From assembly GCA_021776915.1 (NCBI GenBank), contig JAIQZU010000008.1, forward strand, positions 1 to 64,000: a stretch of 64,000 bases of DNA, in the 5' to 3' direction. Origin of the DNA: Candidatus Scalindua sp. (GTDB lineage Bacteria > Planctomycetota > Brocadiia > Brocadiales > Scalinduaceae). Both the position numbers and the translations under genes were made by a program. Of the stretch, positions 23,359 to 49,894 are shown piece by piece (positions within the stretch are counted from its first letter, which is position 1; each line of letters opens with the position of its first letter). The notes beneath the pieces are model-generated. The model did no database searches, was not told the DNA's origin, and saw only the letters and a list, made by a program, of their open reading frames with translations.

Positions 23359-25296
23359 GTGACAGACTTAAGTACTGAAGGACAGGTTCCAAAAACAGGA
23401 ATTGCCGGGCTAAAGCAGAACTTACAGAAAGACATTATCTCGGGATTCCTGGTTTTCCTGATTGCGCTTCCGTTATGTCTGGGCATATCTTTAGCTTGCG
23501 GCTATCCCGCTATAGCGGGCATCTTTACCGCAATTATCGGTTCCATACTTGCCACATTTATCAGCAATTCGGAACTCACTATAAAAGGGCCGGCTGCAGG
23601 ATTGATTGTAATTGTCATTGGCGCCGTAACTGAATTTGGTTTTACCGGAGGACAGGACCCTGCGGCGGACTTGCAGGCTTACAAACTTGCCCTGGGAGTG
23701 GGAGTAGCGGCCGGTTGCATCCAGATTCTGTTCGGACTGCTCCGTGTAGGTTCACTTGGAGACTTCTTTCCTTTAACAGTCGTGCACGGAATGCTGGCGT
23801 CTATTGGCATAATAATTATACTCAAACAATTTCCTATTACTCTGGGAGGACATGCAAAAGGGGAACCTCTGGAGTTACTGGCCGAAATACCGGAAAAGGT
23901 CATGCACATGAATCCCGGAATAGCCATAATCGGCCTCATCAGCCTGGTGATTATGTTCTGTTTTCCGCTGATTAAGAATAAATATGTCAAGATGGTTCCT
24001 TCCCCGATGGTTGTGCTTATCTTTGCGGTGCCGTTGGGAATTTATTTCGGCCTGACTCATGAACACTCTTATATTTTCCGTGGCCACGAATATCACTTGG
24101 GCGAGGCATTTCTGGTCAATGTTCCTGGCAATATGTTCAGCGCAATTACCCATCCTGATTTTTCAGCCCTGAAAACAGTTGCAGGGTGGAAATGGGTAAT
24201 GATGTTTGCGCTTATAGGCAGTATTGAATCACTTCTGAGTGCTAAGGCCATAGACATGATAGACCCATGGAAGAGGAAAACCAACCAGAACAGAGATCTG
24301 CTATCTGTCGGTATCGGGAACACTGTCTGCTCATTTGTTGGAGGACTGCCGATGATATCAGAGATTGTGCGCAGCAGGGCAAATATCGATAATGGGGCAA
24401 GAACCCGTTTTGCGAACATGTACCATGGCATCTTTCTGCTGCTTTTCGTTGCGTTAGTACCATTCCTCCTCCATCAGATTCCACTGGCTGCCCTGGCGGC
24501 AATGCTTGTATATACCGGTTTTAAATTGGCGGCGCCACGCGAATTTGTTCAAGTGTACAGGATTGGAGTAGAACAGTTAATCATATTTGTAGGCACTATC
24601 ATAGCCGTACTGGCAACAGACTTACTCGTTGGAATTGCCATTGGAATAGGGCTGAAGTTCATGATACATATTATCAACGGTGTGCCAATACGTTCTCTGT
24701 TCAGGCCTTATCTGGACATCGAGAGGCGAGACGATGATACTTATACAGTAATCACCAGATACTCTGCAGTCTTCAGCAACTGGATTCCATTCAAGCGACA
24801 ACTCGAACAGTTAGGCCTTATTCAAAAGAAGAATATTATTCTGGATATGTCTGATACAAGGCTGGTTGACCACAGTGTAATGGAAAAGCTTCATGTGTTG
24901 GAAAGCGAATTTGAAGAAAACAATCTCAAACTGGAGATAATTGGGCTGGAAAACCATCTTAAACTGTCTGACCATCCTTTAGCATCTCGCAAAAAAGGTC
25001 TGGCGACACTCAGGCGTATTACCATTTTTGCGGATACAACTCTCCAGGATCAATTCGAACAAGAATTTATAAATATTGGGATAGCTGATTTTGTGGCTAT
25101 GGAATGCGGTGGTTCAGGTATTAAAGATTTCACAAAAAACTCAGAGAAAATAAAGGCACGGGTGTGTACAGAGGTTCTAACAGTGCCAGCAAAGGCAGAA
25201 CTGGTTCTGGATTATCTTCGTAAACAGATTATGCCCAGGTATGCCATTACCGTTTGTGTTGAAAACGTCAGGGCGGTACTCCCGGGTTATTCTTAA
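23359..25296 (+). CDS. SulP-family anion (bicarbonate/sulfate) transporter with STAS and fused PII-like domain
   Basis: The product is 645 aa from a GTG at 23359 behind TGGAGGC. Residues ~20-430 are the SulP membrane domain ('FLIALPLCLGISLACGYPA', 'TIKGPAAGLIVIVIGA', 'GLPMISEIVRSRANIDNGAR'). Residues ~455-540 form a STAS-like domain ('NIILDMSDTRLVDHSVMEKL'). The last ~94 residues (552-645) read as a beta-alpha-beta-beta-alpha-beta unit ('RRITIFADTTLQDQFEQEF', 'VLTVPAKAELVLDYLRKQI', 'YAITVCVENVRAVLPGYS') resembling PII/SbtB/CPII-type regulators with a short T-loop. Next to dabBA, bicarbonate is the likeliest substrate. The paralogue at 39511 has the same architecture and length. Confidence 0.88.
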   Translation: MTDLSTEGQVPKTGIAGLKQNLQKDIISGFLVFLIALPLCLGISLACGYPAIAGIFTAIIGSILATFISNSELTIKGPAAGLIVIVIGAVTEFGFTGGQDPAADLQAYKLALGVGVAAGCIQILFGLLRVGSLGDFFPLTVVHGMLASIGIIIILKQFPITLGGHAKGEPLELLAEIPEKVMHMNPGIAIIGLISLVIMFCFPLIKNKYVKMVPSPMVVLIFAVPLGIYFGLTHEHSYIFRGHEYHLGEAFLVNVPGNMFSAITHPDFSALKTVAGWKWVMMFALIGSIESLLSAKAIDMIDPWKRKTNQNRDLLSVGIGNTVCSFVGGLPMISEIVRSRANIDNGARTRFANMYHGIFLLLFVALVPFLLHQIPLAALAAMLVYTGFKLAAPREFVQVYRIGVEQLIIFVGTIIAVLATDLLVGIAIGIGLKFMIHIINGVPIRSLFRPYLDIERRDDDTYTVITRYSAVFSNWIPFKRQLEQLGLIQKKNIILDMSDTRLVDHSVMEKLHVLESEFEENNLKLEIIGLENHLKLSDHPLASRKKGLATLRRITIFADTTLQDQFEQEFINIGIADFVAMECGGSGIKDFTKNSEKIKARVCTEVLTVPAKAELVLDYLRKQIMPRYAITVCVENVRAVLPGYS

Positions 25297-25360: not shown

Positions 25361-27955
25361 ATGATCGCATATTATCCCATACTGATATTTCTGTCACCTC
25401 TTGCAGCAGCGCTGATCACTGCTTTTCCGGGAGGCATCTTCGGCCGGAAGGCATATAGTATTGGGGTACTGTTCAATGTGGTGTCACTGGTAATTTCGAT
25501 TATAGTGCTCTGCGAGGTCGCTGCACCAGGAAATGAGGTACTTTACCTTCCCGTTTTCTCCTCACCGTTGAGCGGCCTGCTGCATTTCGATCTATATATC
25601 GACCGGCTGGCAGCTGTGATGATGGTGCTCATATCCGGAGTCAGCATTCTCATCTCCATTTACTCCATACGGTATATGCAACCAGAACAGGGTCGTGTAA
25701 GGTTTCACACCCTGTTGTCCCTTACCACCTTTTCTCTTCTGTGCATGGTGTCAAGCGCCAACCTCTTGATGCTATTTCTCTTCTGGCAACTTCTGAGTTG
25801 GCTGCTGAGTCTCCTTTCTCATAATTATTCTCATCCGACAACCGTTAAATCCGCCTTTAAGACCTTTGTCATGTTGCGATTGGGAGATGTTGCCTTTCTC
25901 TCCGGCATTGTTCTGGCCTATAGACTGTACGGTACCCTGGATTTTCGCCAGATTTTTATCCGGGCCGCCGAGGTTTCTACTACATTTTCCCTCTGGCCGG
26001 GCGGGGGGCTTGAGATCAACGCCGTCACTGCCGTTACCCTGCTGATCTTTGTCGGAGCCATGAGCAAGTCGGCCCAATTCCCATTGCATACGTGGCTTCC
26101 GGAATCTCTGTACGCGCCGACGCCGGTCCATGCCCTTCTGCATGCGGGAATCATCAATGCCGGCGGATTCCTGTTAAATCGTCTTGCTCCACTCTATGTT
26201 CACAGCCCATCCACCCTGCATGTGATTTTCGTCATCGGTCTGCTTACAACTATTCTTGGGGCAAGCATGATGCTGACCCAGAACGATATTAAAAAAACAC
26301 TGGGATACTCCACCATCGGGCAGATGGGCTATATGATAATGGAGTGCGGGCTGGGGGCATTTGCCCTGGCGATTTTCCATCTCATAGCACACGGTCTGTT
26401 TAAAGGCTCAATCTTCTTAAACTGCGGCCGTGTGATCCATGATGCGCGCCAGGAACAAAGATCCCCTTACAAGGAGGAAACAGTGGAGTGGATGGGCTTT
26501 TCTCGTTTGGCCTGGATTATCGGATTTGCCGCAACTCTTATCCTTCCACTGATCATCATTTTAGCCGCGCATGGTGTTTTAAAAATACCAGTGGATGATT
26601 CACAACAAGGTATCGTGATATTACTCTTCTTTTGTTGGGTGACTTCATCCCAGGTCATCCTGTCCATCTACCATTTACGAATTGCCTCCTGGAAAGTGGT
26701 GGTAATCATGCTTCTGGCCCTGCTTGTTAGTGTCTTTACCTATCTGCTGGTAGTAGAGAAATTCACCTACTTCCTGTATCCAACAGCCGGGCAGGTACAC
26801 CTCTTTTACCGAGCCGCCGCATTGCCTGGTATGGTTTTCGATTTCCTTGTGGCAGCGATGACACTGTTTGTTGTACTGGGCTGGATACTCTACTATGCCG
26901 AGGGCCATGGAAAAACGATACGGATGCCAAAATGGATAAATGTGCTGGAGGATCGCATGTATCTTCTTCTTGTGAACCGCCTCTATCTGGATATTTTATC
27001 TCACAGACTCTATCGTAGGTTCACACGCGTTGCACATCTCTTTGATAAGGGAAAGCCATTTCGGTATTTATCGGTATTGATTGCATCTGGCCTTGTTTTT
27101 ACAGCGATAATTCCTATGAGAGATATGTCAATCGCGAACGTATTGATATTTTTTGTTCTTGCACTCATGCTTCCTCTGTTCCCTTTCCATGGGGTCTATG
27201 TTGCCGCTTTGTCACGTCTGTCAGGAATTTTACCCGTATGTCTGGCATTCATACTGCCGGCTGTGGGATTCTGCGGAGCAATGGTTCTTCTTCCAGAAAT
27301 GTCAATGATAATGCTCAAAGGCGTAAGCGTACTGGCATTGTGCGGTGCCGTTTATGGTTCGCTTAAAGCCATGATGCAATACAAAGTTACTCACACGTCG
27401 GCCTACATGGGTGTTGCCTTATATTCCATCCTGTGGTGGTATCTGGCCAACACGGGAACTTATACTCCACAGGCGGTAGCCTATGCAGTCGCTGTGTCAC
27501 TGGTCATCAGCGGACTGTTCTTTGCCTGGCATTGTGTGCGGGTGAGGTATGGAGATATGAGCCTGGACATGATCGGCGGACTGGCACGGCCTATGCCGCG
27601 ATTTGGCATCTTGCTGTCACTGCTGGTGATGGCGGCCATTGGCCTTCCTCCATTTGGCCTTTTTTCCGGCTATATGGAAATGCTGATCCACCCATCCATT
27701 ACGATGTCCTGGGAGTTGATTGTCATTCTGCTTTCCTGGCTTGCGGTCTCCTGGTACTTGTTCAAGCTGATGCAACGGCTCCTCTTTGGCCCGCACCGTT
27801 CTGACATCCTCTATGAGGATCTACGTTTTACCGAATTAGCTTTCTTAGTGATCGTGATATTAGTACTTGGAATCCAAGGCATAACGCCGTACGGATTTTG
27901 CGAATCTCTCATGCTCACTGATGGATATAATTTTCTCCTGGAGATATGCCAATGA
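25361..27955 (+). CDS. dabB: DabB-like proton-conducting subunit, fused to a second NuoL/M/N-like module
   Basis: The product is 864 aa, against ~500-560 for usual DabB. Residues 1-~570 form a NuoL/M-type antiporter module with 'TLTTFSLLCMV'-type helices, the lysine-bearing 'KSAQFPLHTWLPESLYAPTP', 'VHALLHAGIINAGGFLLNR' and 'DIKKTLGYSTIGQMGYMI'. Residues ~575-864 add about seven more helices with NuoM-like but degenerate signatures ('LPLFPFHGVYVAALSRLSG', 'AYMGVALYSILWW', 'IGLPPFGLFSGYMEML'). DabB with DabA forms a membrane-potential/proton-driven inorganic-carbon accumulator. It overlaps dabA and starts 64 nt after sulP behind AAGGAAG. Confidence 0.87.
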   Translation: MIAYYPILIFLSPLAAALITAFPGGIFGRKAYSIGVLFNVVSLVISIIVLCEVAAPGNEVLYLPVFSSPLSGLLHFDLYIDRLAAVMMVLISGVSILISIYSIRYMQPEQGRVRFHTLLSLTTFSLLCMVSSANLLMLFLFWQLLSWLLSLLSHNYSHPTTVKSAFKTFVMLRLGDVAFLSGIVLAYRLYGTLDFRQIFIRAAEVSTTFSLWPGGGLEINAVTAVTLLIFVGAMSKSAQFPLHTWLPESLYAPTPVHALLHAGIINAGGFLLNRLAPLYVHSPSTLHVIFVIGLLTTILGASMMLTQNDIKKTLGYSTIGQMGYMIMECGLGAFALAIFHLIAHGLFKGSIFLNCGRVIHDARQEQRSPYKEETVEWMGFSRLAWIIGFAATLILPLIIILAAHGVLKIPVDDSQQGIVILLFFCWVTSSQVILSIYHLRIASWKVVVIMLLALLVSVFTYLLVVEKFTYFLYPTAGQVHLFYRAAALPGMVFDFLVAAMTLFVVLGWILYYAEGHGKTIRMPKWINVLEDRMYLLLVNRLYLDILSHRLYRRFTRVAHLFDKGKPFRYLSVLIASGLVFTAIIPMRDMSIANVLIFFVLALMLPLFPFHGVYVAALSRLSGILPVCLAFILPAVGFCGAMVLLPEMSMIMLKGVSVLALCGAVYGSLKAMMQYKVTHTSAYMGVALYSILWWYLANTGTYTPQAVAYAVAVSLVISGLFFAWHCVRVRYGDMSLDMIGGLARPMPRFGILLSLLVMAAIGLPPFGLFSGYMEMLIHPSITMSWELIVILLSWLAVSWYLFKLMQRLLFGPHRSDILYEDLRFTELAFLVIVILVLGIQGITPYGFCESLMLTDGYNFLLEICQ

Positions 27956-30900
27956 AACAAACAGTAGCCACCCCATGTACTGCAACCGAACGGACACAAC
28001 TCAGAGAACTGGTGCAAAGCTCAAGCGAAATCATCGCATATTACTGGCCCATGCTCAACTTTGTTCATCACAACCCGTTGCATGGTTTGGAACACCTCCA
28101 TTTTGAGGAGGCAGTGCGTCGCGGCCATCAGCTCCTGGGAGGGAAAGGATATCTGTCCTGCGAACTCTTTCGGGACTATGCCCGCTCAGGCAGGATTCTT
28201 CCTTATCATATAAGTGCCGCCCTGAAGTCGCTAGAGAGAGATAAGCAGGTGACGCTGGGGAAGCGTGAGGTTGCCCACATCGAGGTTCTTCAAGCCCATC
28301 TTCTCCAGGGGATCTCAGTGCCGGCTGACGAAACGCTGGAGGCCATGATCAATAGGCATCCGGATCGGCTTATTATAGAATCTCTGGAAAACCATGTTTT
28401 CCCTGTGCTGGAAACACCAACAATTCAGGACACAATAAAAACCTGTATCCTTGAGGAGCAACAGGCGCTTGGTCGGTGTAGTACACTGGCGAATTGGTGT
28501 GACCGCATCCTGGGTACTCAGATAACACAGCAGATCAATCAGGAATTGATCAAATGGCTTGAAGCCTTTTTGGATGAGGGCCATGCCGGATGGCCCATGC
28601 CAGATAGGGAAAAGGGTTTCTATGGAGCATGGAAATTGCTAGCCGGTCTTGAATGGTCTCCCTGTGAAATACAGGATAGCAAAAAGAAGCTCGTCTGTCT
28701 GCCGGCACACCCGGAGGACGCTCTTCATGAACATCTTACGGTCCTTGGCATTCCAGTGGAAACATGGCGGGACTATATCACTCTTCAACTTACAGCCTTA
28801 CCCGGCTGGGCAGGTTTTGTCAAATGGAGGGAGGACCAGACCGAGTACGAATGGCAGCAGGCCCATCCAATTGATTTGATACAATATCTTGCGGTGCGCG
28901 TATGGTATGAGCGAGAGCTTGTCCAGAAGACCTGTCGGGAACAACTTGGGATTGATGGAAATATTGGTGCAATTTCAACCGACATGCAAAGACGGCCACA
29001 TCTCTATTTTATGAAGAGGGAGCGTACAATTGGCAAATTACCTGCCTCTTACGCCGAACAGGTCGATAGGAGTTTTCATGGAAGGATCAGCAACAGGAAT
29101 ACGAAACAGGATGAGTGGAAAGCGCTGGCTGAACGCTATGAGGCAGAGTTGGCCCCTCGCCATGCTCAGGTAACGCGAAAGGGCGCTGCTTTGCGGCTGC
29201 TCACCATCGCCAACGCTCTTGGGATCCCGCCCTCTCTTATGATGGGAGCAGATCCAGAGCAGTTGCGGGAAATGTTGGATTGGCTGGATTCCTTTCCAGA
29301 ATCGAACCATGGGCCTGTATGGTTGAAGGCGTTTGAAATCGGTTACCAGGAACAACTCATTGACAAGCTAAGTCCAAATTTTTTCAAACCGCAATCGGCT
29401 CCCCATGACATCCGGAGTGTGGTAAGGCCTCTTGCACAGGTGGTATTTTGTATTGATGTACGGTCTGAACCGTTCCGGCGACACCTGGAGGCGATTGGGA
29501 ACTATGAAACATTTGGTTTTGCCGGATTCTTTTCAGTTTTCATTCGTTATCGGGCTTTTGGCAGCCATAATGAAACAAATCAGTTTCCGGTAATTGTGAA
29601 GGCGAAGAATGTGGTACACGAACTCCCCCGTACCTATCAAGGTCAGTTTGTTTCCAGGCACCTTTACAGATCCACGCTGGTTCATGCGGGGCATAAGCTT
29701 TTACATGATCTTAAAGAGAATGTAATTACTCCTTATGTCATGGTGGAGTCGCTCGGCTGGTTTTATATCATTCCATTTGTGGGAAAGACTATTTTCAAAA
29801 CATGCTATCGGAACTGTGCTGACTGGCTTAGGCGCACATTCATATCTCCCATAGCCACTACCATGACTGTGGACCAACAGTCAAGGTCTGAAGTGGAAGA
29901 TATGCTGGCTGCCGAGCAACGCGAGGCCATTCGTGGTGCATTTGCGACACGGTATGGAAGTCGTGGACAACATGTCAGCCCGGAGTGGCTGGAAACCTTA
30001 CGCCAGTGGGCATTGGATGAAAACAGCTTCAATAATCGAAGTTCGAATGATCCGGCTCAGGCATTTGGCTTGTCCGAGAGGGAGGTAAAGGCATTTCTCA
30101 GAGAACTGCGTTATCATTACAAGATCAACAGTGATGATGCCTTTGAGCGAGTGGAAAAAACCATCAAAATCGGCATAAATTTCGCGGACCAGGTGCAAAC
30201 GCTGGAAAATGCTTTCCGGATAATGGGGCTGACACGAACTTTCTCTCGTCTGGTGCTCTTTTGTGCCCATGGCAGTTCCTCAGATAATAATCCATTTGAA
30301 GCCGCATTGGACTGCGGTGCTTGCGGTGGCAATGAGGGAAGTCCGAACTCCCGCATCCTCGCTACCATGGCTAATAAACCCCTGGTACGTGAACAGCTTG
30401 CCAGGAATGGCATCTCTATTCCTCAGGACACCCATTTCATTGCGGGAAGACACGACACCACCACTGATGAGGTACAGATCTTCGATTTGGAGGATCTCCC
30501 TTCTACCCATCAACACGATTTGCTTCACTTGATCCAAGACCTCAAGGAAACCAGTGTTCGCAATAGCCAGGAACGATGTACCAAATTTCCAGAGGTTAAA
30601 ATATCTCTTACACCGATCAAAGCAACACGGCATACTAGCGGACGCAGTTGTGACTGGAGTCAAATCCGCCCTGAATGGGGACTGTCTGGCAACGCGGCAT
30701 TTATAATCGGGTCTCGCAAGCTGAGTCAGGGGATCAACCTTGAAGGGAAAGTCTTTCTGCATTCTTATGATTATCTGGAAGATCCGACAGGCCAATTCCT
30801 CGAGATACTAATGACTGCTCCCCAGGTAGTGGGTCAATGGATCAACATGGAGCATTATTTTTCCACAGTAGATAACGAAGTTTATGGTAGTGGAAGCAAG

Positions 30901-31206
30901 ATTTACCATAATGTAGTAGGACGGTTCGGGATTATGTCCGGACCCCAAAGTGACCTGCGCGCAGGTTTGGCTCAGCAGTCCGTCATGGACGGCCAGCGGC
31001 CTTTTCATGAGCCAATGCGTTTGTTCACTCTGATTGAAGCTCCAAGGGAGTGGATCAGCCGGATTATCCTGAAGCATCGCGTCCTTCAGCATTATTACGA
31101 CAACGAATGGGTATACCTGGCAGTGTTTGATCCGAAAGAGAAAATCTATTATCGTTACATCCCGAAGCAGGGATTCACACAGGTGAGAAGCCAAGTCCTT
31201 CCCTGA
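27952..31206 (+). CDS. dabA: DabA (DUF2309), zinc subunit of the DAB inorganic-carbon accumulator
   Basis: The product is 1084 aa from the ATG at 27952, which overlaps the dabB stop as ATGA with GGAG at a normal distance; an ATG at 27946 is too close to the same GGAG. The beta-CA-like metal site is intact: Cys500 and Asp502 in 'VVFCIDVRSEP', His773 in 'FCAHGSSSDN' and Cys788 in 'LDCGACGGNEG'. The two-residue Cys-Asp and 15-residue His-Cys spacings match the published Halothiobacillus DabA ligands. With DabB it is thought to hydrate CO2 vectorially, trapping bicarbonate. It is a long form: Halothiobacillus DabA is shorter. Confidence 0.93.
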   Translation: MKQTVATPCTATERTQLRELVQSSSEIIAYYWPMLNFVHHNPLHGLEHLHFEEAVRRGHQLLGGKGYLSCELFRDYARSGRILPYHISAALKSLERDKQVTLGKREVAHIEVLQAHLLQGISVPADETLEAMINRHPDRLIIESLENHVFPVLETPTIQDTIKTCILEEQQALGRCSTLANWCDRILGTQITQQINQELIKWLEAFLDEGHAGWPMPDREKGFYGAWKLLAGLEWSPCEIQDSKKKLVCLPAHPEDALHEHLTVLGIPVETWRDYITLQLTALPGWAGFVKWREDQTEYEWQQAHPIDLIQYLAVRVWYERELVQKTCREQLGIDGNIGAISTDMQRRPHLYFMKRERTIGKLPASYAEQVDRSFHGRISNRNTKQDEWKALAERYEAELAPRHAQVTRKGAALRLLTIANALGIPPSLMMGADPEQLREMLDWLDSFPESNHGPVWLKAFEIGYQEQLIDKLSPNFFKPQSAPHDIRSVVRPLAQVVFCIDVRSEPFRRHLEAIGNYETFGFAGFFSVFIRYRAFGSHNETNQFPVIVKAKNVVHELPRTYQGQFVSRHLYRSTLVHAGHKLLHDLKENVITPYVMVESLGWFYIIPFVGKTIFKTCYRNCADWLRRTFISPIATTMTVDQQSRSEVEDMLAAEQREAIRGAFATRYGSRGQHVSPEWLETLRQWALDENSFNNRSSNDPAQAFGLSEREVKAFLRELRYHYKINSDDAFERVEKTIKIGINFADQVQTLENAFRIMGLTRTFSRLVLFCAHGSSSDNNPFEAALDCGACGGNEGSPNSRILATMANKPLVREQLARNGISIPQDTHFIAGRHDTTTDEVQIFDLEDLPSTHQHDLLHLIQDLKETSVRNSQERCTKFPEVKISLTPIKATRHTSGRSCDWSQIRPEWGLSGNAAFIIGSRKLSQGINLEGKVFLHSYDYLEDPTGQFLEILMTAPQVVGQWINMEHYFSTVDNEVYGSGSKIYHNVVGRFGIMSGPQSDLRAGLAQQSVMDGQRPFHEPMRLFTLIEAPREWISRIILKHRVLQHYYDNEWVYLAVFDPKEKIYYRYIPKQGFTQVRSQVLP

Positions 31207-31560: not shown

Positions 31561-33135
31561 TTAAACGTCGAAGCCGGAATAGGAGAGGTTGAAGCTCTTA
31601 TTAATGAGAGGAAAATCAGGGACAATATTGTAGTCTTTTGCAGCATGGCCAATAACCATCCAATTCAAGAATGAAGGATCCCTGACGTCAACCCTGCTGA
31701 TGTTTCCATCTGAGTCAGTTGCCGCAAAGTAAACAATCTCACCTCTCCATCCCTCGGTTATTCCTATTGCGTAACAATTTTTCTTTAACGATATCTCTTT
31801 TGTTGCTACAAGCACCGATCTGACAGGTTTCATTTTTAATGCCTCCTGTATGATTTTTATAGATGTATAAACCTCTTTCACGCGAACATGAAATCTTGCA
31901 TAGACATCTCCATCTTTCTCGGTTGCAATATCAAAAGGGAATTTGTCATAAGCCGCATAAGGATAATTTATCCTGGCGTCAACCTTAAGCCCAATTGATC
32001 TGGCCACTATACCAACCACTCCATGGTCACCGGCAACTTGAGGTTCTAATATTCCTGTCCGTTCCAGCCTGTTTAACAGGGAACTGCTTTCTTCCGCTAT
32101 TTCTATAACTTCAGTGAAGTCTTGCCTCAATCTTATCATCTCCTGTAAGAGTTCGTCTTTAAGTTGTGGAGGAATATCTTTTGTGACTCCACCAATCACG
32201 TTTACTCCCCTTAGAAAACGGCTGCCTGTCAGACGCTCATTCCATTGCATAACAATTTCCCGCATACGCGCTCCATGGCTACCGCCAAAATTGAAACCTG
32301 TATCCAGCATTATTGCCCCAATGTCGCCAAAATGGTTTGCCAGCCTTTCGAGTTCTGAATAGATAACTCTGAGATATTCTGATATTTCAGGCACTTCAGT
32401 TTCGTTTAACGACTCTATTGCCTGGCAGAATGCGAGGGAGTGGCTGAATGAACTATCACCGGAAATCCTTTCAGATAATCTCACCTTCTCATTCAATGGG
32501 AGGATTTCAAAGAGTTTTTCGCTGCCTTTGTGTGTATATCCCAATTTTGGCTCTAATAAGACTATCTCTTCGCCGGCCATACTAAAGCGGAAATGTCCAG
32601 GCTCAATAATACCTGCATGGACTGGCCCTACAGGTATCTCATAAATACCTTCGCCCTCAATTTTCTGGAAATTATAAGGTGTATTTGCCGTTTCCGGCCT
32701 CTCCTGCCAGTTAAAATCCTTCCTCAATGGAAACAGATTATCAGGCCAGTTTTCATGTAGGATAATGGGTCTCGGGTTTAGATGTCCTGTCGGCGTCAGT
32801 CCGAAGAACGATTTGATTTTTCTTTCATATTCTGCCGTTTCATGAACAGCGCCTGCAAGAGAAGGGAATTTCTCTTCATTATACAGTAGTAAATATGGAA
32901 CCAGGAAGATGTTTTCTCCCGGCACACCGAAAACATAGAAAATCTTAAATGATTCATTTTCCTTTCTCTCATCGGTTGCGGCTATTGTCTTCAGAGGTAA
33001 TTTGTCCGTGTGGTAAAGCTTATAGACAACACGAGAAATATTGTTTGAGTAGATTTTGTATGTAATAATATTTCCCGAAATCTCGGGTTTCGTATTTTTC
33101 GGTACGTATTTATCAATGATTTGATTATGGTCCAT
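31561..33135 (-). CDS. HyfG-like (NuoC-NuoD fused) large subunit lacking all Ni ligands
   Basis: The product is 524 aa. Residues ~25-145 are NuoC-like ('NWPDNLFPLRKDF'). The rest is NuoD/hydrogenase-large-like, with 'EIPVGPVHAGIIEPGHFRFS' and 'LGYTHKGSEKLFE'. In NiFe enzymes RxCGxC and DPCxxC bind nickel; here they read R-I-S225-G-D-S228 and D-P-S488-F-L-N491, so all four cysteines are replaced. It belongs to the energy-converting-hydrogenase-related (Ehr) class and cannot bind a NiFe centre. Last gene of a six-gene minus-strand cluster (NuoB-, HyfB-, HyfC-, HyfE-, HyfF-, HyfG-like), directly convergent with the dabA side. Confidence 0.88.
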   Translation of the reverse strand: MDHNQIIDKYVPKNTKPEISGNIITYKIYSNNISRVVYKLYHTDKLPLKTIAATDERKENESFKIFYVFGVPGENIFLVPYLLLYNEEKFPSLAGAVHETAEYERKIKSFFGLTPTGHLNPRPIILHENWPDNLFPLRKDFNWQERPETANTPYNFQKIEGEGIYEIPVGPVHAGIIEPGHFRFSMAGEEIVLLEPKLGYTHKGSEKLFEILPLNEKVRLSERISGDSSFSHSLAFCQAIESLNETEVPEISEYLRVIYSELERLANHFGDIGAIMLDTGFNFGGSHGARMREIVMQWNERLTGSRFLRGVNVIGGVTKDIPPQLKDELLQEMIRLRQDFTEVIEIAEESSSLLNRLERTGILEPQVAGDHGVVGIVARSIGLKVDARINYPYAAYDKFPFDIATEKDGDVYARFHVRVKEVYTSIKIIQEALKMKPVRSVLVATKEISLKKNCYAIGITEGWRGEIVYFAATDSDGNISRVDVRDPSFLNWMVIGHAAKDYNIVPDFPLINKSFNLSYSGFDV

Positions 33136-39510: not shown

Positions 39511-41448
39511 TTAAGAATAACCCGGGAGTACAGCCTTTACGTTTTCAATACAAGCGGTTACGGCATGCCTGGGTAAAATCTGTTTGCGAAGATAATCCAG
39601 GATCAGTTCAGCCTTTGCCGGCATAGCCAGAACTTCTGTACGCACCCGTGCCGTCATTTTCTCAGAAGGGTTTTCCTTATCTTTAATACCTAAACCACCG
39701 CATTTCATAGTCACAAAATCGGCTATCCCTATATTTATAAATTCCAGTTCAAGTTGATTCTGGAGAGCTATATCTGCAAAGATGGTGATTCGGCTGAGTT
39801 TCTCCAGACTTTTTTTGCGGGTTGCTAAAGGATGGTCAGACAGCTTGATATGGTCTTCCAGCCCAATCACCTCCAGTGTAAGATCGTTTTCTTCAAATTC
39901 GCTTTGCAGCTCATGTAGTTTTTCTATTACACTGTGGTCGACCAACCTTGTGTCAGACAAATCCAGAATAATGTTCTTATTTTGCATAAGTCCAAACTTC
40001 TCGAGTTGCCTCTTGAATGGGATCCAGTTACTGAAGACTGCAGAGTATCTGGCGATTACGATATATGTATCCTTGCCCCGACTCTCGACGTCCAGATAAG
40101 GCCTGAACAGAGAACGTATCGGCACTCCATTGATAATATGTATCAGGAACTTGATCCCTATTCCAATTGCAATGCCGATGAGCAAGTCTGTTGCCAGTAC
40201 GGCTATCACAGTACCTACAAATTGAATTAACTGCTCAACTCCAATTTTGTACACTTGAATAAATTCGCGAGGCGCCGCCAACTTAAAACCGGTATATACG
40301 AGCATTGCAGCCAGGGCGGCGAGCGGGATATGATGTAATAAGAATGGCACAGATCCCACGAAAATAAGCAGAAACAACCCGTGATATAAATTGGCAAAAC
40401 GGGTTCTCGCTCCATTATCGATATTTGCCTTGCTACGCACAATCTCTGATATCATCGGCAGTCCCCCAACAAATGCGCATACAGTGTTCCCGATTCCAAC
40501 AGCTAACATGTCTCTGTTCTGGTTGGTTTTCCTCTTCCATGGGTCTATCATGTCGATGGCTTTAGCGCTTAAAAGTGATTCAAGACTACCAATAAGCGCA
40601 AACATCATTACCCATTTCCACCCTGCGACTGTCTTTAAAGCTGAAAAGTCGGGATGAGAGATTGCCTTGAACATATTGCCCGGAACGTTAACCAGGAACT
40701 CTTCCCCGACCATGTATTCACGGCCTTCAAAAGAGTAAGCGTGTTCGTGAGATATGCCGAAATACAATCCTAACGGCACGGCAAACATCAAAACAAACAT
40801 GGGTGTAGGCATCATCTTGACGTACCTGTTCTTGATCAGAGGTACCCCGAACATGATTGCCAGGCTGCCAACTCCAATTGCAGCGATACACGGATTCATA
40901 TGTATTATTTTTGCGGGGATTGACAGGAGCAGTTCAAAAGGTTCTCCTTCTGTATGGCCGCCCAGAGCGACAGGAAACTGTTTGAGTATAATTATTATAC
41001 CAATGGCTGCCAGCATTCCATGTACGGCTGCTGTCGGGAAGAAGTCTCCAAGTGACCCGATACGGAGCAGGCCGAACAGAATCTGGATGCAACCGGCCGC
41101 AACTCCAACTCCCAGGGCAAGTTTATAAGCCTGTAAGTCCGCCGCAGGGTCCTGCCCTCCGGTAAATCCAAATTCAGTTACCGCTCCGATGGCAATTACG
41201 ATCAATCCTGCGGCCGGCCCTTTTATAGTGAGTTCAGAATTGCTGATAAAAGTGGCGAGTATTGAGCCGATAATTGCCGTAAAGATGCCTGCTATAGCGG
41301 GATAGCCGCAGGCTAAAGATATGCCCAGACATAAAGGAAGCGCTATCAAGAAAACCAGGAAACCGGAGATAATGTCTTTCTGGAAGTTCTGTTTCAGCCC
41401 GGCAATGCCCGTTTTTGGAACCTGTCCTTCAATATTTAAGTCCGCCAT
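39511..41448 (-). CDS. Second SulP transporter with STAS and fused PII-like domain
   Basis: The product is 645 aa. The frame opens at a TTG at 41463, but the ATG at 41448 has TTGGAGG 8 nt upstream and yields exactly the length of the paralogue at 23359. The two are nearly identical through the membrane domain (e.g. 'GYPAIAGIFTAIIGSILATF'). They diverge most between residues ~150 and 240 and in the C-terminal domain ('SRITIFADIALQNQLELEF', 'VLAMPAKAELILDYLRKQI'). Flanked by the Ehr-like complex and the Mrp operon, not by dabBA. Likely bicarbonate or sulfate uptake under different control. Confidence 0.87.
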   Translation of the reverse strand: MADLNIEGQVPKTGIAGLKQNFQKDIISGFLVFLIALPLCLGISLACGYPAIAGIFTAIIGSILATFISNSELTIKGPAAGLIVIAIGAVTEFGFTGGQDPAADLQAYKLALGVGVAAGCIQILFGLLRIGSLGDFFPTAAVHGMLAAIGIIIILKQFPVALGGHTEGEPFELLLSIPAKIIHMNPCIAAIGVGSLAIMFGVPLIKNRYVKMMPTPMFVLMFAVPLGLYFGISHEHAYSFEGREYMVGEEFLVNVPGNMFKAISHPDFSALKTVAGWKWVMMFALIGSLESLLSAKAIDMIDPWKRKTNQNRDMLAVGIGNTVCAFVGGLPMISEIVRSKANIDNGARTRFANLYHGLFLLIFVGSVPFLLHHIPLAALAAMLVYTGFKLAAPREFIQVYKIGVEQLIQFVGTVIAVLATDLLIGIAIGIGIKFLIHIINGVPIRSLFRPYLDVESRGKDTYIVIARYSAVFSNWIPFKRQLEKFGLMQNKNIILDLSDTRLVDHSVIEKLHELQSEFEENDLTLEVIGLEDHIKLSDHPLATRKKSLEKLSRITIFADIALQNQLELEFINIGIADFVTMKCGGLGIKDKENPSEKMTARVRTEVLAMPAKAELILDYLRKQILPRHAVTACIENVKAVLPGYS

Positions 41449-42369
41449 AATCAATACCTCCAATTATATATTCAATCAAAAAACTCCTCCATTGTTTTTT
41501 AAATGCAAACAAACTTCTGAGTATTTACATTCTTTCAAGAAGAGTCACATGCCCATAATTGTTGCCAGCATACCCGGCCTGTCGGGATGAGTCTGAAAAT
41601 AACTCAAGCCGGCGTAGGGGGGATACCTCATAACTCTGATTTAGGGTATCGGCTGTCCTCAACGCCATACCTGCTTTTGCAGTTTGCTCAGGGCGTACAT
41701 TAACTCATTAAATGGCATAGCCATTATTTGTTATTAGTTGATCATCAGCTAATAGCCCAAGAGCAAAATTTTCACTTCTGATGAGTTTCGTAATGAAACT
41801 ACAGTTCTATATATTGTTTATAATTGCTTTCATGATGGGGCATAATACAATTCATTTAATTTATAATGAAAAATAATTTTAATATAAGTAATGAATAATA
41901 TTGCAAATGTCAAGCAATATATATGCCTGAAAACATATATATCGTTTGATCGTGGTAAGCATGTTTGATAATTTATAGCTATCATGGGCATAAGAAAATG
42001 GATCACAACTTACTCTGGTGTGAAGTATACTGGCAACTTGTACTTTGTGGTAATAATCTTAAGGGCTCTGCCATGAGTAAATATTAATTGAAATTTATTA
42101 ATATTTCTTTACAATCTCCATCTGTTGATAATCCTGCATATGTCAGATTTCAGCCAGTTGTGACTATTATTGAATACATTATCAGCTATTCTTTATATAC
42201 TTGTGAGATGTCCACACAATATAAAAAACCATCATAGTCGTTTCTGTATATTGACTCGTGTGAATGGCAAACACGGAATATATGTGCTGATCAAATCCGT
42301 TTTTTAGTAGAATAGTCTTGGTAGAATTGTTTGACTGACGGTATATTGTGGTTTCCTAGGTTGCACTTT
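41449..42369. other. Long divergent intergenic region
   Basis: This ~900-bp gap between divergent sulP and the mrp operon must hold both promoters. On the minus strand a perfect TTGACA lies near 41913-41918, but its -10 (TACTTA at 17 bp) is weak. Minus-strand frames at 41545-41631 ('LSYFQTHPDRPGMLATIMGM') and upstream ('MPFNELMYALSKLQKQVWR') look like broken coding DNA. Very AT-rich sequence fills 41800-42100. Confidence 0.4.
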
Positions 42370-42490: not shown

Positions 42491-42630
42491 GATATGACAA
42501 AATATTGTACAGTATTTTGGTTTATCAATAAGAACGGCATGTTTTCTGCTACGAATAAACAATTCTCAGAATAGTAAGTTAACGTTACATACAGAATTAA
42601 TTGCCTTATACTTTTAGTCGAGGTGAAGAT

Positions 42631-43134
42631 ATGAGCTTTTTAATTACTGCCTTATCGATGTTTCTATTCTGGATACTTCTTTCCGGTGAGTTTACCTTTA
42701 TCCTTATCACTTCAGGGATTGTAGCAAGTCTTATAGTAGCGTATCTTTCACATGATATGTTCATTGGGAAGGCTGATTTAAAGACTGAAACCGGAAGGGT
42801 TCTCAAGTTTATTAAATATCTACCCTGGCTTTTGTGGGAAATTATCCTGGCAAATTTTGAGATCGCATATCTTGTCCTTAGCCCAAAGTTGAAGATTGAT
42901 CCGCAGCTTGTTCGTTTTAAACCTGATGTAAGGACAAACCTGGGGATTGTAACCCTTGCTCACTCGATAACGCTTACACCAGGCACGGTAACAGTTGAGG
43001 CAAACAGGAAGGAATTTGTCGTCCATGCGATCTGGCAAAAATCAGCCGAGAGCATTATCGGCGGAGAAATGCAGCGAAAGGTAAAAGAAATAGAGGGAGA
43101 GGCAAAGGAGTTAGAGGGGGAAAAAAGTGTTTGA
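42631..43134 (+). CDS. mrpE: MrpE/MnhE/MbhA-like antiporter subunit
   Basis: The product is 167 aa from the ATG at 42631 behind TCGAGGTGAAG; an upstream in-frame start at 42601 has no ribosome site. Three N-terminal helices are followed by the soluble MrpE domain with 'VRTNLGIVTLAHSITLTPGT' and 'EANRKEFVVHAIW'. First gene of an operon in the order E-F-G-(D/E)-B-C-D-D'-D'', as in Mrp and Mbh-type ion modules. The 3' end overlaps mrpF by 8 bases. Confidence 0.9.
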   Translation: MSFLITALSMFLFWILLSGEFTFILITSGIVASLIVAYLSHDMFIGKADLKTETGRVLKFIKYLPWLLWEIILANFEIAYLVLSPKLKIDPQLVRFKPDVRTNLGIVTLAHSITLTPGTVTVEANRKEFVVHAIWQKSAESIIGGEMQRKVKEIEGEAKELEGEKSV

Positions 43135-43381
43135 TATTGCCGCAGTTGCAGTAACAATTGCTATTATGATAACTATGTATAGGGCAATAAAGGGGCCGAC
43201 GATATATGACAGGGTCCTTGCAGGAAATGCAATAGGCACTAAGACTGTAATCCTTTTAGTGCTTATTGGATTTGTACATGACCGTCCACATTTTCTTGAT
43301 TTGGCCGTGGTTTACCCATTAATAAACTTTATTGCAACAATAGCTTTTCTTAAATACAGAGAGATGGGGAGACTGGATTAG
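43127..43381 (+). CDS. mrpF: MrpF/MnhF/MbhB-like subunit
   Basis: The product is 84 aa from a GTG (GAGGGGG upstream). Three helices; 'MYRAIKGPTIYDRVLAGNAI' is the MrpF signature with the conserved Asp/Arg, followed by 'DLAVVYPLINFIATIAFLKY'. Overlaps mrpE. Small membrane component needed for Mrp complex assembly. Confidence 0.9.
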   Translation: MFDIAAVAVTIAIMITMYRAIKGPTIYDRVLAGNAIGTKTVILLVLIGFVHDRPHFLDLAVVYPLINFIATIAFLKYREMGRLD

Positions 43382-43389
43382 GAAATTGA

Positions 43390-43485
43390 GGAATTTAAGA
43401 ATTGAGGGATTAAAGAATTATTCAATACAATAATCCATCGAAAAAAATTCCTGAATTCTTAAATCCCATAATTCCTCAATTAATC
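43390..43485. repeat. Imperfect inverted repeat between mrpF and mrpG
   Basis: 'AATTTAAGAATTGAGGGATT' words on the left are mirrored by 'AATTCTTAAATCCCATAATT' and 'CCTCAATT' on the right, forming a long AT-rich hairpin in an operon otherwise packed with overlapping genes. Related words (ATTGAGGGATTT) recur at 46750 by the four-helix-bundle cassette. It may be the scar of a similar cassette. Confidence 0.5.
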
Positions 43486-43499
43486 ATAATTATTTAATA

Positions 43500-43817
43500 A
43501 TGGATATCAGGACAATAATTGCCGGAGTATTTTTAGGTATAGGTTGCTTCTTTATTATCGTAACCGCCATAGGTATTGTGAGATTTCCTGACTTTTACTC
43601 CAGGTTACATCCTGCAGGGAAAGCCGATACTATCGGACAGGCGCTTGTCCTTATAGGCCTGATGGTATATGAGGGGTTCTCTCTGATAAGTGTTAAGCTG
43701 CTGATCATAGTTATATTCATCTTTATTGCAAGCCCGACAGCAACACATGCTGTCGCACAGGCTGCATTCTTAAAAGGGGTTGCACCCTGGAAGAAAAAAA
43801 AGAGGGATAAGAAATGA
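43500..43817 (+). CDS. mrpG: MrpG/MnhG/MbhC-like subunit
   Basis: The product is 105 aa, three helices. 'GIVRFPDFYSRLHPAGKADT' is the MrpG signature, then 'ASPTATHAVAQAAFLKG'. Its stop overlaps the start of the next gene by four bases (ATGA). Separated from mrpF by the 118-bp inverted-repeat spacer. Confidence 0.9.
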   Translation: MDIRTIIAGVFLGIGCFFIIVTAIGIVRFPDFYSRLHPAGKADTIGQALVLIGLMVYEGFSLISVKLLIIVIFIFIASPTATHAVAQAAFLKGVAPWKKKKRDKK

Positions 43818-44362
43818 TTGATGTTATGCTGCTTCTTATTATTGTGGTATGTGCTATTTTTGCACTTTTCATGAAAGACCTGTTGAGTGCGACAATTATA
43901 CTTGGCATATACAGCTTTATAATGGCTACAATTTTCACCAGGTTGAATGCGGTTGATGTAGCTTTTACTGAGGCGTCTGTTGGGGCGGGGATTACGTCTG
44001 TGTTAATGATCGCAGCGCTCAGCAGAACAAAGAGATATGAGTACCATTATACAAAATTGCAGAGAAGAAAGCCTTCGGCTCTGTTTTTAAAGGTGATATC
44101 CCTCTTGCTTGTTATAATTACGGGTGCAGTCCTTGTATATGGAACGATTGACATGCCGGAGTTTGGAGACCCTGAAGCGCCTGCGAATAAACATGTGTCG
44201 CCAAGATATATAGCGGAATCCGAACATGAGACCTCAGAAAAAAACATTGTTACCGCTGTACTTGCAGGTTACAGGGGATACGATACACTCGGAGAAACAA
44301 CGGTGATTTTCACCGCCGGCATATGTGTTATATTGCTGCTGAGGAGAAGGATAAACACATGA
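43814..44362 (+). CDS. Fused MbhD-MbhE-like (MrpA C-terminal-like, DUF4040) subunit
   Basis: The product is 182 aa. Residues 1-~80 are the DUF4040/MbhD unit ('MKDLLSATIILGIYSFIMAT', 'DVAFTEASVGAGITSVLMIA'). Residues ~95-182 match MbhE ('MPEFGDPEAPANKHVSPRYI', 'EKNIVTAVLAGYRGYDTLGE'). These segments form the C-terminus of MrpA in classical Mrp antiporters. A separate gene here places the operon closer to the Mbh/Mbx/Mbs branch of ion modules. Overlaps both neighbours by four bases. Confidence 0.87.
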   Translation: MIDVMLLLIIVVCAIFALFMKDLLSATIILGIYSFIMATIFTRLNAVDVAFTEASVGAGITSVLMIAALSRTKRYEYHYTKLQRRKPSALFLKVISLLLVIITGAVLVYGTIDMPEFGDPEAPANKHVSPRYIAESEHETSEKNIVTAVLAGYRGYDTLGETTVIFTAGICVILLLRRRINT

Positions 44363-44793
44363 GAGAACATATTATAATACGAATTGTTTCAAAATTCTTC
44401 TGTCCGTTTATCCAGTTGTATGCATTTTATGTTATTGCTCATGGCGACCTTGGCCCAGGCGGTGGTTTCCAGGGGGGGGTGATCTTAGGCGCAAGCATTA
44501 TTTTGTATGTAATTGCATTTGGTATGGATGAGGGTAGAAAGAGGTTATCGCAGAAAGCCAGCGATATCTTTATATCAACCGGTGTATTGATATATGCGGG
44601 GATCGGGTTGCTTTGTATACTGGCAGGGGGGGCGTTTCTGGAATATGCAGAACTCCCTCTGGGGTCGCATCACCTTGCAAGCCATTTAGGTATCTATGGT
44701 ATTGAAATAGGCGTAGGGATCACAGTTGCTTTTGTAATGATAACAATATTCTTTGAAACGGCGAAGAAAGAAAGATTCGATAGGCAATCATGA
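44359..44793 (+). CDS. mrpB: MrpB/MnhB/MbhF-like subunit
   Basis: The product is 144 aa from the ATG at 44359, which overlaps the previous stop (ATGA). 'VIAHGDLGPGGGFQGGVILG' is the invariant MrpB motif, followed by 'SHHLASHLGIYGIEIGVGIT'. Four helices. The earlier in-frame ATG at 44323 would give a long unnatural overlap. Confidence 0.92.
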   Translation: MREHIIIRIVSKFFCPFIQLYAFYVIAHGDLGPGGGFQGGVILGASIILYVIAFGMDEGRKRLSQKASDIFISTGVLIYAGIGLLCILAGGAFLEYAELPLGSHHLASHLGIYGIEIGVGITVAFVMITIFFETAKKERFDRQS

Positions 44794-45215
44794 TTGATAT
44801 AATTCATTTTATCCAGACAAAATATTACTATTTAGTAGTAATATTACTCATGATGCTTGGGCTTTATACAACGATATCTTCGAGGAATCTTATAAAAAAG
44901 ATTATAGGCATAAACATCTTTCAGATCTCGGTCTTTCTGTTTTATATTGCAATGGCCAAGGTTAAGCATGGAACTGCTCCCATATTATGGGATAAGGGTG
45001 TTGTTTATGATAATCCTCTCCCTCATGTGCTTATCCTTACCGCTATTGTTGTTTCTGTAAGCACAACCGCAGTTGCTCTTGCCCTTATAATAAATATTCA
45101 TAAAGAATATGGAACGATTGAAGAAGACGGTATCCTGGCAAAGCAGAAACTGGATGAAGAATGGATGAACCTGGAAAAACAAAAACTGGATATTGACAGG
45201 AGCAGCGTGACATAG
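44790..45215 (+). CDS. mrpC: MrpC/MnhC/NuoK-like subunit
   Basis: The product is 141 aa, three helices. 'SSRNLIKKIIGINIFQISVF' and 'PHVLILTAIVVSVSTTAVAL' are MrpC/NuoK signatures. A charged C-terminal extension (about 110-141, rich in Glu/Lys) is longer than usual. Overlaps mrpB by four bases and abuts mrpD with no gap. Confidence 0.9.
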   Translation: MIDIIHFIQTKYYYLVVILLMMLGLYTTISSRNLIKKIIGINIFQISVFLFYIAMAKVKHGTAPILWDKGVVYDNPLPHVLILTAIVVSVSTTAVALALIINIHKEYGTIEEDGILAKQKLDEEWMNLEKQKLDIDRSSVT

Positions 45216-46742
45216 ATGAAAACCATTCAAGATTTGCCGGTCCTTATAATAGTCATTCCACTTGGCTTTGCAGTTATAATCCCGCTGGTAGCCAGATTCA
45301 ACAGGTTGCTTCCATGGATTATTGCATCAACTATAACATTCTTCTGTTTTCTAACCTCCATTTCCCTTCTTATCACTGTCCTGGAAACAGGGAAGATAAG
45401 TTACTGGTTGGGCGGTTGGGAACCTCCCTGGGGGATAGAGTATGCGATTGATTACCTGAATGCATTTGTGCTGGCAGTTGTTTCATTCATCGCCTTTATT
45501 GTCTCTCTTTATTCAAGGAGAAGCGTGGAGATGGAGATTAATGAATACAAGCAATCAGCGTTTTACTCCATATATATGCTCTTCATCACAGGACTCATGG
45601 GGATAGTTATAACGGGTGATATATTCAATATATATGTATTCCTGGAGATTTCATCACTTGCAGGATATGCCCTGATTGCCATGGGAAGGAAAAGGGATGC
45701 CCTTGTAGCAAGCTATAATTATCTTATATTAGGTACTATTGCCGCCACATTTATACTAATCGGTATAGGTTACATTTATACGGCAACAGGCACCCTTAAC
45801 ATTGCCGATCTACAAGAAAGATTGCCTGCACTGTTTCACTCAAAGATGGTATTAGTTGCCCTTGCATTTTTTACGGTTGGACTTAGCCTGAAACTCGCCT
45901 TATTCCCATTACATACCTGGCTGCCGGGCGCCTATACACATGCCCCCTCAGTGGTGAGTTGCATAATGGCTGCAACTGCAACAAAGGTTGGCGTCTATGC
46001 AATGTTAAGGATTATATTTGGCGTCTTTAAAATAGAGTTTGATATACATTTTATCCCTATTGCAAATATACTGATTGTTATCTCTTCGATGGCGATAATT
46101 GCAGGTTCTGCGTTTGCCATTGCACAGACAAATCTTAAAAGGATGCTTGCGTATTCAAGCGTTGGACAGATAGGATATATAGTCCTGGGTGCAGTCCTTG
46201 CCAATCAGGCAGCAATGACGGGAAGTATTATCCATATACTGAATCATGCGTTAATGAAAGGGGCACTGTTTATGGTAGTGGGTTGTATTGTTTACAAGAC
46301 AGGTATAGAAGATATTTCAGGATTAAATGGGATGAGCAAAAAGATGCCGTTTACAATGGCTGTATTTACAGTTGCTGGATTGTCTATGATGGGCGTCCCG
46401 CTTACGGTCGGCTTTGTCAGTAAATGGTATATTGCTATCGGTGCGCTGAATGCCGGTATGTGGTACCTTATTCCAGTAATAATTACAGGTTCTCTGCTTT
46501 CGGCAGTATACATCTGGAGGATTATCGTAAACATATACTTCCCTGAAGAATTCCCGGGGCACGAGTTACAATATACAGACGGAGGAACCAGAATTACGGA
46601 CCACAAATCCCAGTATTCTGAAGCGCCCTGGAGTATGCTGGGGCCAACGATGGCCCTTGCAGCGCTTTGTATATATTTTGGAATCAGCGCTACAGCACCG
46701 CTGTATATAGCCGAGAAGGCGGCTGTTATGCTGTTGCAGTAA
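45216..46742 (+). CDS. mrpD: MrpD-like NuoL/M/N-type antiporter subunit (first)
   Basis: The product is 508 aa, ~14 helices. 'ISSLAGYALIAMGRKRDALV' carries the key Glu-region, 'LSLKLALFPLHTWLPGAYTH' the lysine and PLHTWLP motif, and 'NLKRMLAYSSVGQIGYIVLG' the second half-channel. Starts immediately after mrpC. Ion-translocating subunit of the Mrp/Mbh-type module. Confidence 0.92.
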   Translation: MKTIQDLPVLIIVIPLGFAVIIPLVARFNRLLPWIIASTITFFCFLTSISLLITVLETGKISYWLGGWEPPWGIEYAIDYLNAFVLAVVSFIAFIVSLYSRRSVEMEINEYKQSAFYSIYMLFITGLMGIVITGDIFNIYVFLEISSLAGYALIAMGRKRDALVASYNYLILGTIAATFILIGIGYIYTATGTLNIADLQERLPALFHSKMVLVALAFFTVGLSLKLALFPLHTWLPGAYTHAPSVVSCIMAATATKVGVYAMLRIIFGVFKIEFDIHFIPIANILIVISSMAIIAGSAFAIAQTNLKRMLAYSSVGQIGYIVLGAVLANQAAMTGSIIHILNHALMKGALFMVVGCIVYKTGIEDISGLNGMSKKMPFTMAVFTVAGLSMMGVPLTVGFVSKWYIAIGALNAGMWYLIPVIITGSLLSAVYIWRIIVNIYFPEEFPGHELQYTDGGTRITDHKSQYSEAPWSMLGPTMALAALCIYFGISATAPLYIAEKAAVMLLQ

Positions 46743-46791
46743 AAGAAAATTGAGGGATTTATTAGTAGCGAATAATGAAATTCGAATAACG

Positions 46792-47222
46792 AACATCGAA
46801 TAATGAATTCAGTAAAGAAATATGATTTAGAAGACAGGTTAATAGAATTTGCTATAACAATTATGGAACTTGTTGAAGAGTTACCCAAAAACAGAGCTGG
46901 TAATCATATTGCAGGACAATTGATTAGGTGCGGCACATCTCCAGCATTAAATTATGGCGAAGTTCAAAGTTCTGAATCACAGAAAGATTTTGTACATAAA
47001 ATGAAGGTGATCTTAAAAGAATTAAGAGAAACAAATATTTGCCTTAAAATTATCAAACGTAAACCTTTAATAAGACAATCTCAAAGGCTCGACAAAGTTA
47101 TCAAAGAATGCAATGAATTGATTTCAATTTTTGTATCAAGTATTCGGACGGCACAAAAACCAAGGGGCAAAGAAAAATAAATATAATAATGGTAAAAATT
47201 AGATATTCATAATTCGATGTTC
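46792..47222. repeat. Inverted repeats bounding the four-helix-bundle cassette
   Basis: Left arm 46792-46811 (GAACATCGAATAATGAATTC) matches the reverse complement of 47202-47222 (GAACATCGAATTATGAATATC), and further out AAAATTGA words pair with TCAATTTT. The left arm overlaps the start codon of the enclosed gene. Such bounded ~450-bp units resemble free-standing versions of 23S rRNA intervening sequences. Confidence 0.6.
46803..47180 (+). CDS. Four-helix-bundle protein (23S rRNA intervening-sequence protein family)
   Basis: The product is 125 aa. 'YDLEDRLIEFAITIMELVEE', 'GNHIAGQLIRCGTSPALNYG' and 'ESQKDFVHKMKVILKELRET' match the family encoded in rRNA intervening sequences and in free cassettes. 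It forms a pentameric bundle of unknown function. It interrupts the mrp operon between two antiporter genes and is bounded by inverted repeats, so it is a mobile or hitchhiking unit rather than an antiporter component. Confidence 0.9.
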   Translation: MNSVKKYDLEDRLIEFAITIMELVEELPKNRAGNHIAGQLIRCGTSPALNYGEVQSSESQKDFVHKMKVILKELRETNICLKIIKRKPLIRQSQRLDKVIKECNELISIFVSSIRTAQKPRGKEK

Positions 47223-47257
47223 TATATTCATCATTCAATTTTAAGGAAGATTTAACA

Positions 47258-48742: not shown

Positions 48743-48934
48743 AGACAGAAACCACAGATTTCACAGATGGCACAGATTTTACTTTAGGTTCAATCAAAAT
48801 GATTAGACCAGCAAATGATTCCTCGACTCCGCTCGGAATGACGTCATGCTGAGCGAAGTCGAAGCATTGAAATGCCTGGACATTGTAAATTAAAAGTTTA
48901 ACCTTATTATTTTTACGTTTAAGGTGGAATTATT
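48743..48934 (+). repeat. Intergenic repeat debris in the operon
   Basis: Starts with the widespread 'AAACCACAGATTTCACAGAT' type word, then 48821-48885 holds a partial CTCGACTCCGCTC ... GAGCGAAGTCGAAGC palindrome followed by 'ATTGAAAT', the end of the modular element family. No gene. Confidence 0.5.
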
Positions 48935-49051
48935 ATGAAAAAAGAAATAATGGAATTAAGCCATGAACCTAAACCAGGATATGATAAGGCCTATTACGTT
49001 GTAATTACTATAGGTATAATATATCTTGCTATAACATTTATTATGGGATAA
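48935..49051 (+). CDS. Small single-helix membrane protein of the antiporter operon
   Basis: The product is 38 aa, beginning MKKEIMELSHEPKPGYDKAY and ending in a single hydrophobic helix. AAGGTGG lies 10 nt upstream. The 'HEPKPGYxKAYYV' motif before one helix looks like a conserved small subunit found beside extra NuoL-like antiporter genes (recalled pattern, not verified). Probably a structural membrane peptide of the complex. Confidence 0.6.
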   Translation: MKKEIMELSHEPKPGYDKAYYVVITIGIIYLAITFIMG

Positions 49052-49120
49052 TAGAACTAAATAAAAATAATCCCGACCGTGTCGGATCTGTGATCTGCCC
49101 ACAGGGTCGTCCTCAGGCGA

Positions 49121-49564: not shown

Positions 49565-49589
49565 AATTAGTAATTCAAAGGAGTTTTAT

Positions 49590-49832: not shown

Positions 49833-49845
49833 CATTATCAGAACC

Positions 49846-49894
49846 CTGGAATCCTCCCGAAAGGGAGGTACCCCCTTGCTTTCGCAAGGAATCC
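49846..49894 (-). repeat. Composite hairpin repeat
   Basis: Contains GGAATCCTCCCGAAAGGGAGG and CTTGCTTTCGCAAGGAATCC. The reverse complement is the same two-hairpin composite as 14141-14193, and the first hairpin matches the arm word of 17680-17727. It sits in the 105-nt gap before the last antiporter gene. Confidence 0.7.

Follow-up and report, generated by a model that had tools for sequence, protein, structure and literature searches.

The window, the whole 64,000-nucleotide stretch of the Candidatus Scalindua sp. contig analysed here, contains on its minus strand a six-gene set encoding homologues of group 4 hydrogenase and complex I subunits (Table 1). The gene order is small subunit, HyfB-like, HyfC-like, HyfE-like, HyfF-like and, last, large subunit, with intergenic gaps of 264, 111, 11, 5 and 1 bases along the set. 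A DabB-DabA pair (25361-31206) converges with this operon, and this orientation led us to reject the possibility that DabAB shares a transcript with the six genes. Two SulP genes in inverted orientation flank the DabAB-Ehr block, which may represent a DIC island that is mobile or arose by duplication, and an Mrp-type antiporter cluster lies nearby. We found no viral link of the locus. The genome encodes hydrazine synthase alpha (PF18582), which was present in none of 14 control genomes, and the organism is therefore an anammox bacterium.

Table 1. Features of the window surrounding and including the six-gene operon
Feature	Position	Strand	Remarks
SulP-family anion (bicarbonate/sulfate-type) transporter	23359..25296	+	
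DabB-like (NuoL-type) subunit of DIC-uptake complex	25361..27955	+	Possible functional partner
DabA, beta-CA-like	27946..31206	+	Possible functional partner; C502-I-D504 and H775...C790 match zinc-ligand pattern
Large subunit, HyfG/HycE-like, EhrL-like NuoC+NuoD fusion, 524 aa	31561..33135	-	Pfam, alignment, structure match; codons of S225 (32461-32463), S228 (32452-32454), S518 (31582-31584), G521 (31573-31575)
HyfF-like antiporter-type membrane subunit, 482 aa	33137..34585	-	E134, K222 kept; K395 at NuoM E407 position
HyfE-like (NuoK-related) membrane subunit, 218 aa	34591..35247	-	
HyfC-like (NuoH-related) junction subunit, 312 aa	35259..36197	-	E139, D200, E207, E218 kept
HyfB-like antiporter-type subunit, ND3-like C-terminus, 681 aa	36309..38354	-	E146, K228, K259, K357, E412, C574 kept
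Small subunit, NuoB/HycG-like, 174 aa	38619..39143	-	Alignment, AlphaFold model; codons of T56 (38976-38978), C59 (38967-38969), D123 (38775-38777), D153 (38685-38687)
Second SulP-family transporter, upstream of small subunit	39511..41463	-	83% identical to first
Mrp-type antiporter cluster	42601..51758	+	Several NuoM/NuoN-like subunits

Metal sites and proton relay of the complex

The large-subunit open reading frame is intact and matches Pfam Complex1_30kDa and Complex1_49kDa, and the solved structure that it matches best is HycE of E. coli formate hydrogenlyase (FHL; 7z0s_E, E=3e-70). Alignment with HycE places S225, S228, S518 and G521 at the positions of the nickel ligands C241, C244, C531 and C534, such that neither of the two CxxC motifs that define a group 4 [NiFe] hydrogenase is present; both are kept in 12 related loci of the same order. 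The sequence-only reading was right that all four nickel cysteines are replaced, and the non-hydrogenase role that it proposed is supported, but it misplaced the second pair: S518 and G521 lie within ‘NLSYSGFDV’, whereas the residues it had named, S488 and N491, belong to an unrelated motif, ‘DPSFLNW’, that is nearly invariant across the family. With its nickel ligands replaced, the complex was rejected as a true hydrogenase. The same reading had allowed for cysteines that are displaced rather than absent and for a frameshift or assembly error at these codons. Neither holds, and the chance of either is negligible: C237 and C454 are the only cysteines of the large subunit and neither is a stand-in, and in relatives from independent genomes the first pair reads S-[ST] or a near variant, and the second S-G or, in one case, S-A, which excludes a sequencing or assembly artefact.

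Loss of the nickel site alone is not new. It is a published hallmark of energy-converting hydrogenase-related (Ehr) complexes (PMC6349859, PMC10284858, PMC10432482), and the Ehr of CPR bacteria have been described as monophyletic and devoid of the metal-binding cysteines (PMC7304191). The window complex has the same six-subunit, group 4-like set without nickel ligands and falls in a single CPR clade as reported, which supports its earlier placement among Ehr-type complexes.

The small subunit differs from that of other Ehr. Of the four cysteines that hold the proximal/N2 [4Fe-4S] cluster, three are lost, with HycG C48-C51-C115-C145 corresponding to T56-C59-D123-D153, so that the full set of proximal cluster ligands expected of a group 4 [NiFe] hydrogenase is missing as well. 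Wherever the positions were readable, all four cysteines (CCCC) are kept in E. coli HycG and HyfI, in hydrogenases of the same order and in nickel-less Ehr of the same family and order, including those of related anammox genomes. The window and its CPR-type relatives instead have TCDD, SCDD, TEDD, DCDN, DCGD, SEGD or TEGD, and TCDD or similar sets occur in relatives from 13 small genomes, mostly CPR (Patescibacteria); the split between cluster-less and CCCC sets is clean across the aligned small subunits. In four CPR relatives of this first cluster-less type, glutamate replaces the last cysteine, and the cluster site therefore has no cysteine at all. A second cluster-less type has DCDN in same-genus genomes and DADN in a CPR relative. 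Three same-genus genomes (L052, L055 and L056) carry tandem Ehr operons, one CCCC and one cluster-less (DCDN) on a long branch.

Across the whole complex, the only alignment columns in which half or more of the cluster-less members have cysteine are those of large-subunit C237, small-subunit C59, and C451 and C574 of the HyfB-like subunit, and the readable flanks yielded no ferredoxin-type motif. Two anammox hydrogenase loci have an extended small subunit with a fused ferredoxin-type CxxCxxCxxxC motif (L038, 742-1587; L041, 12867-13658), and these were the two same-order hydrogenase loci where a ferredoxin motif was found. The loss of [4Fe-4S] ligands, which the sequence-only reading did not notice, is what distinguishes this subclade from other Ehr. 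In the open-access literature we found no report of this small-subunit cluster loss, of its distribution in a single clade or of a linkage to carbon genes.

The proton machinery, by contrast, is intact. The large subunit retains H173, E178, H268, R379, E421 and R464, the equivalents of HycE H188, E193, H284, R395, E437 and R478 that were discussed with the FHL structure (PMC9474812), and these residues are conserved among relatives bar conservative R/K changes; HycE D529 corresponds to N516. The membrane arm has the antiporter-type glutamates and lysines and the NuoH-type acidic residues of an ion-translocating arm of the complex I superfamily, and these are conserved across relatives (E146/K228/K259/K357/E412 of the HyfB-like subunit, E134/K222 of the HyfF-like subunit and E139/D200/E207/E218 of the HyfC-like subunit), as is the ND3-type coupling-loop cysteine (HycC C537, here C574). 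AlphaFold models of the head subunits, built as single chains without ligands (mean pLDDT 85.6 and 83.5), matched FHL and complex I chains best. The complex shares architecture, fold, proton-relay residues and the coupling-loop cysteine with the E. coli Hyf and Hyc group 4 [NiFe] hydrogenases (PMC9474812), but lacks HyfD as well as their nickel ligands, their cluster ligands and the ferredoxin subunits HyfA/HyfH. Nor does it match respiratory complex I, which is marked by an N2 cluster, a quinone His/Tyr and an NADH or ferredoxin input module: the cluster ligands are replaced, no ferredoxin motif was found nearby and, in the alignment, Gly226 of the large subunit occupies the position of the quinone tyrosine. 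That the redox centres are gone while the proton machinery remains argues for function rather than decay.

Phylogeny and distribution

In a large-subunit tree, which contained no named Ehr reference (e.g., Geobacter EhrL), the window sequence lies within a clade of CPR and small-genome MAG sequences (support 100/97), where the CPR members that it groups with include a Kerfeldbacteria sequence. A tree of all six subunits (2406 columns) recovered the cluster-less complexes as one group (SH-aLRT 98), with the window inside an eight-member group otherwise composed of CPR and small-genome MAG sequences (support 100). Nickel-bearing hydrogenases branch outside, and nickel-less, cluster-bearing Ehr branch between the two, an order that suggests that nickel was lost first and the cluster later, within the limits that long branches and a quick search method set on the deeper forks.

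Close homologues were found in none of 12 other genomes of the genus and in about 11 of 380 sampled CPR genomes, and small-subunit identity to the CPR homologues is 75-81%. From this distribution and the position of the window among CPR sequences in the trees, we infer that the operon was likely transferred laterally into the anammox lineage. Its GC content (0.396) is like that of its contig, and composition therefore adds no support for transfer.

Inorganic-carbon genes near the operons

The remark that this complex sits in an inorganic-carbon block proved a good lead, as DIC or CA-like genes recur beside such complexes. Among the eight anammox genomes that have both full-length DabA and a cluster of this general kind, the two share one neighbourhood in five (G000, G034, G045, G047 and G056), and in all of these except G000 DabA adjoins a nickel-bearing hydrogenase rather than an Ehr. 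At L041, L042, L057 and L059, loci of other anammox genomes, DabAB genes neighbour nickel-bearing group 4 hydrogenase clusters. In three same-genus genomes, the gene immediately upstream of the cluster-bearing Ehr operon encodes a SulP protein.

At the nine CPR loci with readable flanks, a CA-like neighbour was identified at four and none was seen at five. The neighbour at L113 is related to cadmium carbonic anhydrase (3bob, E=3.6e-7) and contains both Cys-x-Asp and His-x-x-Cys; this protein was present in one of 380 genomes, and no widespread CDCA homologue was found in CPR. At L119, the sole Pfam match of the neighbour is carboxysomal CA, a match that falls short of the cut-off (E=0.0017; E=2.5e-4 in a one-genome search). 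The CA-like proteins of L112 and L118, encoded directly upstream of the small subunit, are 22% identical and share C-x-D and H-x-P-C, and their family was found in three of 380 CPR genomes, with two of its three members directly upstream of a cluster-less Ehr operon. This rare family (L112, 15840-16427; L118, 14981-15781; L135, 9601-10209) has a beta-CA-like pattern and no Pfam match. Compared by profile with E. coli beta-CAs, the C-x-D/H-x-x-C family gave a weak match, aligned at the H-x-x-C site. CA genes are otherwise scarce in CPR, with Pro_CA scoring above its cut-off in four of 182 CPR genomes.

A regular-expression test for enrichment of CA-like motifs around the cluster-less operons was not significant (p=0.19), and since the carbon-gene neighbours were identified by inspection, their adjacency is no independent test of a functional link. 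None of the six subunits is itself CA-like, so that the complex lacks the internal CA-type zinc subunit of a DAB system; DabA and the CA-like proteins are neighbours only, and the DabAB of the window could work alone. Overall, we regard the link of the complex to CO2 chemistry, a coupling that gene linkage points to, as tentative. At L004, L113 and L118, in CPR-type genomes, the cluster-less Ehr operons have ATP-synthase genes (atpD/atpG/atpC-like) as neighbours.

Proposed function and competing explanations

Taken together, the residues lost and retained indicate that the complex is probably a redox-free, complex I-type ion translocator. Its head would contain no redox cofactor, having neither a [NiFe] site, nor a proximal/N2 [4Fe-4S] cluster, nor a ferredoxin-like subunit or domain, and no replacement cofactor is predicted. 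Without any electron transfer, protonation and conformational change would link the membrane arm to the region of the former active site. The aspartates that replace cluster ligands, together with the polar pocket where nickel would have been bound, are candidate protonatable or ligand-binding groups.

Because inorganic-carbon genes recur beside the complex, the leading candidate for a partner reaction is the hydration of CO2 to HCO3- by a separate carbonic-anhydrase-type protein, which would be DabA here and members of other families in CPR; in function, the system would then resemble DAB or NDH-1MS. A proton is released when CO2 is hydrated and the head relay is retained, such that a CA-type partner could feed a proton into the path that leads from the former active site to the junction. 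We consider the chances evenly balanced that both parts hold, i.e., that this is a redox-independent ion translocator likely coupled to CO2/HCO3- hydration by a separate CA-type protein. The fullest version, in which carboxylates replace N2 as protonatable groups, interchangeable CA-type CO2 hydration replaces electron transfer and the system moved between CPR and anammox bacteria, is more speculative and somewhat unlikely to be correct in every part.

Precedents exist for portions of this scheme. In DAB2, a NuoL-like subunit is paired with a beta-CA-like subunit and there is no redox chemistry (PMC13144422). The window complex, which DabAB adjoins, likewise combines antiporter-like membrane subunits with a predicted absence of redox chemistry, but it has six subunits and a NuoB/NuoCD head where DAB has two subunits and a CA-like subunit of its own. 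Cyanobacterial NDH-1MS shows that a CO2-hydrating module can be accommodated by a complex I (PMC6981117); it is driven by electron transfer, whereas the window complex has no predicted redox centre and no identified CupA homologue, and is linked to CO2 hydration only by gene neighbourhood.

The carbon genes could, alternatively, be coincidental, and the complex a plain Mrp-like cation/proton antiporter or a device for pH/Na+ homeostasis in which the head is only a cap with a structural or gating function. The full Glu/Lys sets of two antiporter-type subunits, an Mrp-type cluster a few kilobases away and the ATP-synthase genes near three CPR operons are all consistent with this explanation, which we consider unlikely but deserving of serious attention; the head, however, retains relay residues that belonged to the former active site, which exceeds the needs of a mere cap, and the DIC and CA-like neighbours are recurrent.

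Redox chemistry might also persist, via an unusually ligated cluster or another cofactor, as in an FDH-Ehr complex or with quinone. The general proposal for Ehr complexes is that they link redox reactions to the movement of ions, for example in FDH-Ehr (PMC6349859), and C59 and two aspartates remain in the small subunit of the window. Absence of the cluster ligands disfavours such redox-coupled ion movement, however, as do the four relatives without any cysteine at the cluster site, the lack of a ferredoxin motif in the readable flanks and, with respect to quinone, Gly226, and we consider it improbable. Still less probable is that the operon is a decaying, non-functional remnant acquired from CPR: although the complex occurs in only one of 13 genomes of the genus, all six open reading frames are intact, functional residues are kept and the small subunit remains as similar to its CPR homologues as noted above.

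How the head of complex I is coupled to ion pumping is a long-standing question. If the redox-independent translocator proposed here is correct, it would be a natural version that has the proton relay and the pump residues but no redox centre, separating pumping from electron transfer and making head-arm coupling testable. It would also suggest a role in energy or CO2 metabolism for a puzzling complex of CPR bacteria, and would be one more instance of genes passing between CPR and anammox bacteria.
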